Shown here: positions 2,092 to 4,407 of the stretch, in pieces
How the letters are laid out: each line of letters begins with the position of its first letter
Position numbering within the stretch: the stretch's first letter is position 1
Source: a virus
Direction: 5' to 3' (one strand)
IMG/VR virus record: IMGVR_UViG_3300032288_002199
Coordinates: 1-34,808 of that record
DNA: 34,808 nt
Notes under the pieces: model-generated
The model's input: only the letters and a program-made list of their open reading frames with translations
Told to the model about the DNA's origin: nothing
Database searches by the model: none
Program-made: the position numbers and the translations under genes

Positions 2092-4173
2092 TTACAGAGC
2101 CTTACGGGATACTAAACTTGCGTAGAATTCACCGTTATATGGTGTTGATTTTTGTGTTGTAAGAATCTTCGTATCACCACTTCCGCCGGCATTAACAACA
2201 ACAGGTGCAGCAGGTTGTTGACGCATTTGTGTTCTGCCAGCATACCTTGCTGATGTTAATTCAGAACTTGTTGATGCAATTTGAGTACCTTGTGATGGAC
2301 TATGTTGAATCATTCTACCTTCCAAAACTTTTTCAAAATCAGCAACTTTTAATTTGGCGAGCTCTGGATTGTTTTTAGATGGATTCGCATAACCAGCAGC
2401 AACTATTGCTTCTGATACTGTCATATCTTTACCTGCCTCTGCGGCTCTGTTTACAGCAATCGCTCCTCCTGGACCAACATAATGAGCCATATAAAGATTT
2501 CCTAATGTAGATTTTATGCCCGCTCTTTCTAATACTCCTTTATTGCCTTTTAATAAAAATTCTTGAAGTTTTTCTTGAGTCTCAGAATTAAATTTTGTAT
2601 TCATATCTAATTTTAATTGCTGCACTAAACCTGGTTTTCCAGGCTTACCAAATAATGTATCTGGCATAAACTGATATTTACCTACAGCTCCAGATCCTAA
2701 ATTAATTTTATCTCTAGTTGCTTGAAATGCTTGAACTTCAGATAGAGACATTTCAGATAATTTTTTTCCACTAAATTCTTCTGCTGTAGGTAAACCAATT
2801 GTATTTTTTATTTTTCCATCTCTTGTTTTTCTATCACCAAAAGCAATATCATAACTTCCTCCAGCTTCAGCGCCACCAATAGCAGAAGATACAGAAGATG
2901 GTGTTGTTGATGGTGCCGATATTGTGGCAGTTGGAGCTGGTGTAGGTGCTGTCGGTGCCGCTGTAGGTCTTGGCATTGACGCAGGCGCTGGTGCAGTTTC
3001 ATATGAAGGAGAAACAGCCATACCACCGCTACCTGTTGATATTGTTCCACCTGTGCCACCAGAAACTACAGCGTTTGATGGTATAGTTGGTTCTGATGGA
3101 ATATAACCACGACCTCTTCTAGCATCATTAGTGGTATCAGGAACTGAAGTTGATGGTACTGGACCTGGTGGTGGAGTTGATGGTTCGACTGTTTGTGAAG
3201 GTGCAGTATCTTTTGCAACCATTTCTAAATATTTTTGTTTCAATCCATCGTCACATACCTCAAGAACTTTTGCCAGGTTTGTTCCTCTCACTACCTCATT
3301 ACAAAAACTGTCAGCGGCTGCGCCTTTTAATTTATCTTCTGTCAACCGTTTAACTATATCATTAGCAGTGCCTTTTGTCAAGTTACCAGTTGCAATTGCT
3401 GTTGATTGATTTTGTGCGGCATTAGTTACATTTCCTGGAACATTAGCATTTTCTGGTTTTTTTAATTCTTCATCATTACGACTTTTCATAAATCTAGCTA
3501 ACAATGCAGTACCACCTATCGCAGCTGCAGCGATAAATGTTGGGCTTGATATAATACTGCCTGCAATAGAAGCTAAACTCTTAAGAACACCTCCTTTGCC
3601 ACTCATTATATTTAAATCACCACCTTCTTCACCACCAGCAGATTTAACATAGAGTGCAGACTCTGGTGTTTGACCATCTTTTTCGGTGCTTGTGCCAAAT
3701 AAATTAAGTCCTTTGCCACCTTTTGCAGTAACACCACCCATCTTACCTAACGTACTTTCAAAAAGGGTGTTTCTTTCTCCAGCTCTCTTGAAGAACATAT
3801 CACCCTTCATTGATGGTTTTCCACCTTGTAACTTAACCATTTTGGCAATATTTTGACGCATCAGGTTCATATCTCTAGCCATTGCTGGAAGAACCATCGT
3901 ATTTTTGGCAGTCAAATTGCTTGATGCAAGAATAGCACCCATAGATGCTGAAGACATATTTCCGCTAGAGTTAGTTTCTGATTTTTTGGTGCCTGGTCGT
4001 TTTGCAGTTGCGTTGTATGCTTTCAGACTAGGAAACATTGCAGTAAGCAAACCAGATTGGTCAAACATCTGCCTTGGATCAATCTTTTCTCCAATTCTTT
4101 TACCAATAGTTGATCCTAGCCCGCCACCGCGACCTATTTCACTCTTGTAAATATCTGCCAGTCTAGATGCCAT
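2092..4173 (-). CDS. Probable tape-measure protein with a muramidase/transglycosylase-like domain
   Basis: 693 residues. The N-terminal third is Met/Lys/Gly-rich; residues about 196-227 (SIAGSIISSPTFIAAAAIGG and following) form one long hydrophobic segment; 322-430 is a Pro/Thr/Ala/Ser linker; 430-620 looks like a lysozyme superfamily domain, with a candidate catalytic Glu436 (GGAEAGGSYD), the GAVGKYQFMP signature at 495-504 and YMAHYVGPGGA at 561-571. The gene comes straight after gp26 and gp51, the place of the tape measure in phages with G/T-type chaperones; T4 gp29 is 590 residues. Tape measures that carry peptidoglycan-cutting domains are known in other phages. It could instead be a separate internal virion muramidase. 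The lytic fold is the surer part; the tape-measure role rests on synteny, the membrane-like segment and length. Confidence 0.6.
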   Translation of the reverse strand: MASRLADIYKSEIGRGGGLGSTIGKRIGEKIDPRQMFDQSGLLTAMFPSLKAYNATAKRPGTKKSETNSSGNMSSASMGAILASSNLTAKNTMVLPAMARDMNLMRQNIAKMVKLQGGKPSMKGDMFFKRAGERNTLFESTLGKMGGVTAKGGKGLNLFGTSTEKDGQTPESALYVKSAGGEEGGDLNIMSGKGGVLKSLASIAGSIISSPTFIAAAAIGGTALLARFMKSRNDEELKKPENANVPGNVTNAAQNQSTAIATGNLTKGTANDIVKRLTEDKLKGAAADSFCNEVVRGTNLAKVLEVCDDGLKQKYLEMVAKDTAPSQTVEPSTPPPGPVPSTSVPDTTNDARRGRGYIPSEPTIPSNAVVSGGTGGTISTGSGGMAVSPSYETAPAPASMPRPTAAPTAPTPAPTATISAPSTTPSSVSSAIGGAEAGGSYDIAFGDRKTRDGKIKNTIGLPTAEEFSGKKLSEMSLSEVQAFQATRDKINLGSGAVGKYQFMPDTLFGKPGKPGLVQQLKLDMNTKFNSETQEKLQEFLLKGNKGVLERAGIKSTLGNLYMAHYVGPGGAIAVNRAAEAGKDMTVSEAIVAAGYANPSKNNPELAKLKVADFEKVLEGRMIQHSPSQGTQIASTSSELTSARYAGRTQMRQQPAAPVVVNAGGSGDTKILTTQKSTPYNGEFYASLVSRKAL

Positions 4174-4176
4174 TTT

Positions 4177-4407
4177 TTATCTCTGTTGTTTTAGTTTTTC
4201 TTTTTCTTGCTCAAGATGTTGCATCAATAAGTTTATGTAAATCTCTCTTTCCCAAGGTAACATATTTTCAAGCTCTGTCAAACTATATTTGTGGTGTTGC
4301 ATCAATGCAAAGTTAGTTTGATAGAAATTACCTAAGTTCTCATAACCAAAGTTTAGACGAAAAAATTTTCTATACCCTCCAGAAGAATTTTCTCTTCGTA
4401 TCCACAT
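4177..4407 (-). CDS. gp51: gp51-like baseplate hub assembly protein, probably made as a -1 frameshift extension of gp26
   Basis: The frame opens with an ATG at 4407 and would give 76 residues. The first 16 or so codons lie inside gp26 in another frame and have no clear Shine-Dalgarno. The convincing part begins near residue 17: a hydrophobic/aromatic stretch, then YSLTELENMLPWEREIYINL and a charged helix (EQEKEKLKQQR). ELExMxPWEREIYxxLL is the pattern of short chaperone domains encoded just before tape-measure genes, and T4 gp51 occupies the same place after gp26. The reading frame is exactly -1 to gp26, and a slippery heptamer lies in the overlap, so the natural product is probably a gp26-51 fusion of about 298 residues. 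Three bases separate its stop from the tape-measure start codon. Confidence 0.7.
   Translation of the reverse strand: MWIRRENSSGGYRKFFRLNFGYENLGNFYQTNFALMQHHKYSLTELENMLPWEREIYINLLMQHLEQEKEKLKQQR

Follow-up and report, generated by a model that had tools for sequence, protein, structure and literature searches.

Genes and features at the gp26 locus

The window, by which we mean the whole stretch of DNA that was analyzed (34,808 nucleotides of IMG/VR virus record IMGVR_UViG_3300032288_002199), carries on its minus strand a gp26 gene, a gp51 module in a different reading frame, and a long downstream gene (Table 1). Gp26 is matched by the PF12322 (T4_baseplate) profile with E 3.7e-62 (210 bits, against a cut-off of 24.5) and by the phrog_150 profile with E 4e-67, and 80 relatives from viral contigs, with identities of 54-100%, were kept for comparison. 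The AF2 model of gp26 has a pLDDT of 90. The functionally related match in a Foldseek comparison of this model with solved structures was a weak one, to the HK97 tail assembly chaperone 2ob9 (E 1.6, probability 0.35), and a sequence search for solved-structure relatives gave nothing beyond one chance-level match. The minus-strand 3' end of gp26 reads ...GGT ATA GAA AAT TTT TTC GTC TAA. As the original prediction stated, and as can be read directly from the window, the gp51 frame is exactly -1 to gp26; it is open across the gp26 end and stops at the TAA at 4179-4177.

Table 1. Features of the gp26/gp51 locus and their positions in the window.
Feature	Position	Strand	Basis or remark
gp26, putative short form (TAC-N, lambda gpG-like), 239 residues	4353..5072	-	Matches to the PF12322 and phrog_150 profiles
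GGAGGG, Shine-Dalgarno-like, 9 nt upstream of the T run	4375..4380	-	Seen in the window; relatives differ
Putative slippery heptamer T TTT TTC, with TTT TTC as frame-0 codons, separated from the gp26 stop by a single codon	4359..4365	-	Conserved in relatives
gp26 stop codon TAA	4353..4355	-	One frame-0 codon (GTC) between slip site and TAA
gp51 module of 60 codons and a stop in the -1 frame (RLNFGYENLGNFYQTNFALMQHHKYSL...); C-terminal portion of the putative 298-residue long form	4177..4359	-	phrog_634, phrog_150, codon periodicity
Downstream gene, 693 residues, candidate tape measure	2092..4173	-	Position and one hydrophobic segment (residues 207-225)

The gene that follows gp51 is plausibly the tape measure. 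A tape-measure profile search of its product gave no significant match, and the syntenic gene in Vibrio phage ValKK3 matches the phrog_58 tape measure weakly (E 1.6e-6). Relatives of the downstream gene were found in 73 loci and are conserved best at the N-terminus; only the first ~150 residues are well conserved, and many of the relatives' loci end before the rest. Elsewhere in the window, positions 1122-1838 of the plus strand encode a 238-residue protein with a signal-peptide-like start and a match to Gcw_chp (PF09694, E 2.9e-49), a bacterial family. This gene, which adjoins gp32 (215-1105), may be a membrane protein gene that the phage acquired from a host.

The putative slippery heptamer and the switch of coding constraint

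An in-frame heptamer of the form X XXY YYZ (YYY = AAA or TTT) no more than 10 codons from the stop occurs in gp26 alone among the 27 larger ORFs of the window, with a chance expectation of about 0.04 per gene. Its conservation was followed in 142 unique junctions, drawn from the viral-contig relatives of gp26, from cyanophage-type contigs, and from isolates. In 138 of them, a single codon separates the run T TTT TTN from the gp26 stop (TTTTTTC in 133, TTTTTTT in 3, and TTTTTTA and TTTTTTG in one each), and the four junctions that do not have it belong to T4, Henu6, and two Ackermannviridae-like phages. Among the 80 viral-contig relatives, the run and its phase are kept in every readable junction, the unreadable ones being L015, with a frame break upstream, and L037, which is truncated. 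These counts, which are uncorrected for phylogeny, show the site and its conservation. In other phage families, the run is also present at the gp26 end: PX29 and S-CAM1 have it, phiM9 has TTTTTTG, phiM7 has TTTTTTT, Melnitz-3 has TTTTTTT directly before the stop, and OLIVR6 has TTTTTTC two codons before it.

The first phenylalanine codon of the run is TTT even in GC-rich phages that hardly use this codon elsewhere. The remainder of gp26 contains no TTT against 12 TTC in ACP17 (GC3 0.85), against 10 TTC in V45v66, and against 11 TTC in phiM9, yet all three have TTT in the run. For eight TTC-rich phages, the joint chance of TTT at this codon is about 4e-7 when calculated from their own usage with kinship ignored, a value that is indicative only because the eight include related rhizobial lineages. 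Single-protein scans of viral contigs for relatives of ACP17, ValKK3, and P10VF returned only one or two loci each, which seem to be the isolates in question or viruses close to them.

The original prediction named two heptamers. T TTT TTC is borne out by these junctions, whereas A AAT TTT is not conserved, the codon before TTT being AAT, AGT, TCT, GAT, GCT, or CGT. Since neither A AAT TTT nor the upstream GGAGGG is conserved, the support for a slip site is confined to T TTT TTC. The first codon read after a slip on this heptamer would be CGT (4359-4357), and the predicted long form would comprise 238 + 60 = 298 residues, the length originally proposed, with a junction of ...ENFF followed by RLNFGYENLGNFYQTNFALMQHHKYSLTELENMLPWEREIYINLLMQHLEQEKEKLKQQR.

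The -1 frame has the properties of a coding sequence that continues gp26. The gp51 module matches phrog_634 ('baseplate hub assembly catalyst') with E 1.4e-27. It also matches positions 227-280, at the C-terminal end of phrog_150, with E 2.9e-8; as phrog_150 is the family of gp26 itself, this second match was a first sign that the two form a single protein elsewhere. In an alignment of 132 junctions, variability is highest at the third position of frame-0 codons before the run and at the third position of -1-frame codons after it, which establishes a switch of coding constraint from one frame to the other. Column entropy peaks at 1.50 and 1.35 at frame-0 third positions before the run and at 1.26, 1.19, and 1.25 at -1-frame third positions after it. 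The six T columns have zero entropy, in part because the junctions were selected for having the run.

No usable start codon is found for a free-standing gp51 in the window. Across the junctions, the nearest -1 stop upstream of the run lies a median of 27 nt away, and in 123 of 138 cases the interval from this stop to the run contains no ATG, GTG, or TTG. In L004, V45v66, and YB07, this stop is 6 nt from the run, and any separate gp51 begun at a common start codon would therefore lack the conserved FFR segment. The sole start codon in this interval of the window is the ATG at 4407-4405, which lacks a Shine-Dalgarno sequence, as had been noted; initiation there would place 14 residues ahead of FFR, and most relatives, with the -1 frame closed at this point, have nothing that corresponds to them. 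The next start in the gp51 frame is a TTG located 60 nt after the start of the run, beyond the conserved FFR..FG..NL.N..QTNFA segment.

Candidate stimulators around the proposed slip site

The GGAGGG upstream of the run had been likened to the stimulator of dnaX. The element is present at 4380-4375, but the likeness does not extend to its conservation: relatives mostly carry GAAGG[ACT] or CAAGG[CA] at this position, and so the alignment that was expected to preserve the run, the -1 phase, and GGAGG preserves the first two and not the third. Pairing of the 24 nt upstream with the anti-Shine-Dalgarno sequence, taken over all junctions, shows no excess over synonymous recodings (mean -5.98 versus -5.44 kcal/mol, with a fraction of 0.52 of the recodings equally strong or stronger). 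The alignment and the synonymous recoding together rule out a conserved stimulatory role for GGAGGG. The window's own copy is among the stronger pairings, being matched by 10% of synonymous recodings, and is possibly a local stimulator.

Downstream of the run, no stable structure was detected in the window's clade (mean z -0.67, with a consensus fold of 2 pairs). In the cyanophage group around S-SKS1, the downstream stem is far more stable than in synonymous recodings, with a mean z of -3.26 and 54 of 60 sequences below -2. This stem has 11 bp, starts 5 nt after the heptamer, and has 97.8% of its cells paired, and one of its pairs occurs as G-C, U-A, and A-U. The evidence for the stem is good and not conclusive, because covariation is seen at one pair only and the sequences are related. 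The stem-loop is a testable candidate for a frameshift stimulator. It is found at L098 1714-1744 and in related loci of cyanophages (columns 13-43 of alignment A1). At almost the same place, S-PM2 has a longer stem that differs from this one.

One gene or two across phage families, and the proposed chaperone role

A scan of 17 phage genomes for PF12322 genes found two in T4, Henu6, Aes508, and Nispero and one in the other 13, and in all 13 of the latter gp51 lies in the -1 frame. Gene 51 of T4 is separate from gene 26, as the original prediction had noted, and divergent from it, and its product is a full-length fusion: the full PF12322 model is matched by residues 1-201, the gp51 module makes up the remainder, and the two are joined in frame. 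Such in-frame long-form homologues, which carry both modules, are represented by T4 gp51 and Aes508 gp51. In T4 and Henu6, the two of the four two-gene phages that were inspected, the run is absent at the gp26 end. Judged from its sequence, T4 itself does without a frameshift here, and its gp51 is a separate full-length long form; the slip site is exchanged for a second gene in T4-type phages. Vibrio phage pv27 (L209 833-2175) has a short and a long member of the gp26 family in tandem, an arrangement that differs from the divergent pair of T4.

Ackermannviridae and their relatives (L093, L094, L210, L211, L212, and L214) have a gp51-like -1 frame and no T6 run. Their loci contain irregular T-rich sites (ATTTTC, CTTTTC, CTTTTT, or GTTTTT), with ATTTTC in ViI and KpS110 and CTTTTT or GTTTTT in Vibrio 1.244.A and VAP7. 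Serratia KNP4 has G GTT TTC, which is also the heptamer of T7 gene 10. Loss of the run with gp51 retained, which the original prediction had counted against itself, was seen, where examined, only in phages with a complete long-form gene, apart from these Ackermannviridae with other T-rich sites. We regard it as fairly likely that the one-gene T TTT TTC frameshift is ancestral in T4-like phages, that T4-type phages lost the run after gene copying and long-form fusion, and that the shift is tuned differently from clade to clade, by the covarying stem-loop (5 nt downstream) in cyanophages and by sites resembling that of T7 gene 10 in Ackermannviridae, with no stimulator detected in the clade of the window.

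This distribution bears on the other ways in which a gp51 product could arise. A separate small gene with its own start, expressed for example by coupled re-initiation at the gp26 stop, is how gp51 is annotated in the public records of many relatives, and in 58 of 138 junctions the -1 frame contains an ATG 15 nt past the beginning of the run. Coupled re-initiation is therefore possible in the groups with an ATG just after the run, which include many cyanophages and KVP40-like phages. The run is retained even where this ATG is present, and the module is part of the full-length fusion in T4-type phages. In the window, the first downstream start is the TTG at +60, past the conserved segment, and the upstream ATG at 4407 has no Shine-Dalgarno sequence; in L004 and other relatives, a -1 stop separates this position from the run. 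We consider a separate gp51 very improbable on these grounds.

Two further readings take the homopolymer itself as the cause. RNA polymerase could slip on the T6 run and add one extra U, which would give the long form without ribosomal slippage, and the presence of a homopolymer in nearly all relatives agrees with this. A run of six T is short for transcriptional slippage. The preservation of a single codon phase, T TTT TTN, the cyanophage stem 5 nt downstream, which is the usual spacing of ribosomal stimulators, and the shorter X XTT TTC-type sites of Ackermannviridae, such as G GTT TTC, all argue against the polymerase, to which we give an even smaller chance than to a separate gp51. Finally, a sequencing or assembly indel in the homopolymer could split one true in-frame gene, all the more so as the window is the record of an uncultivated virus; the arrangement recurs in 133 unique junctions, among them those of isolates from many genera that were sequenced independently, and such an artefact is exceedingly improbable.

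The preferred reading is that gp26 and gp51 are very probably one gene with two products, made by a programmed -1 frameshift, and that the short and long forms constitute the tail assembly chaperone. Most ribosomes would terminate at the gp26 stop and yield the 239-residue short chaperone, while a fraction would slip back one base on U UUU UUC, go on in the -1 frame, and produce the 298-residue long form, of which the last 60 residues are the gp51 module. The two forms may then act together, as lambda gpG and gpGT do, and bind the tape-measure protein during tail tube assembly. The comparative data across junctions argue well for a real programmed -1 frameshift site, in a virus group that is generally without such annotation, and they give strong support to the proposal that the frameshift joins gp26 to gp51 into a lambda G/GT-like chaperone pair. 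We infer from them that slipping occurs, at some rate, and that its products serve as chaperones; as the structure match of gp26 and the tape-measure match of the ValKK3 gene are weak, the chaperone role is taken from the published T4-like chaperone assignment and from the short/long anatomy.

The lambda G/GT pair resembles the locus in its short and long forms, common N-terminus, and -1 shift near the end of the first ORF, a likeness in anatomy. The lambda slippery sequence is G GGA AAG, unlike that of the window. Escherichia coli dnaX also shares with the window a -1 slippage, putative in the window, on a homopolymer heptamer and a Shine-Dalgarno-like sequence upstream, but the element of the window is not conserved, and no downstream hairpin was found in the window's clade. 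The TAC genes of Vandenendeviridae and Andersonviridae (PMC12846349) have a -1 frameshift at a T-rich site at the TAC-N end, as is proposed for the window, and this site lies upstream of the tape measure, which in the window is a candidate; they belong to other phage families, and their motif is GTTTTT and not TTTTTTC.

The original prediction presented the link between T4-like tails and the G/T chaperone system as new, and in this respect it is outdated, since the tail assembly chaperone genes of T4-like phages were identified in 2022 (Vladimirov, Gautam, Davidson, Virology 566:9-15; cited in PMC10885494 and PMC12846349). By its title, that paper argues for a mechanism other than frameshifting. 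PRFect (PMC10885494) cites it for 'some T4-like phages' with a short gene and a long fusion gene, and in PMC12846349 it is the reference for poly-T -1 signals in the TAC-N genes of T4-like phages. From the title and these citations, we take its chaperone genes 26/51 to be the same genes as those of the window. T4 itself has the two-gene form, with a short gp26 and a full-length gp51, and the window the one-gene form with the putative frameshift. Descriptions of the frameshift-made T4-like chaperone in related phages precede this analysis, which adds the window as an unusually clear new example. Added here are the breadth of the comparison, the one-gene/two-gene test, and the conserved cyanophage stem-loop 5 nt after the run. 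In the literature searched, which did not extend to Vladimirov et al. 2022, no explicit gp26/gp51 frameshift in cyanophages was found.

Sullivan et al. 2010 (PMC3037559) reported that the gp51 of cyanophages and marine vibriophages lacks the first ~200 residues of T4 gp51, and the main text of that paper proposes no frameshift, the word occurring 0 times. A frameshift would account for the missing ~200 residues in these marine T4-like phages, as gp26 supplies that part. It would also explain the many records in which gp51 appears as a small gene of its own or is left out, and it would link the two baseplate 'hub' genes of T4 to the lambda-type tail chaperones. The joined reading frame is unmarked in all of the annotated one-gene isolate records inspected. 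T TTT TTN just before the gp26 stop is offered as an annotation rule.
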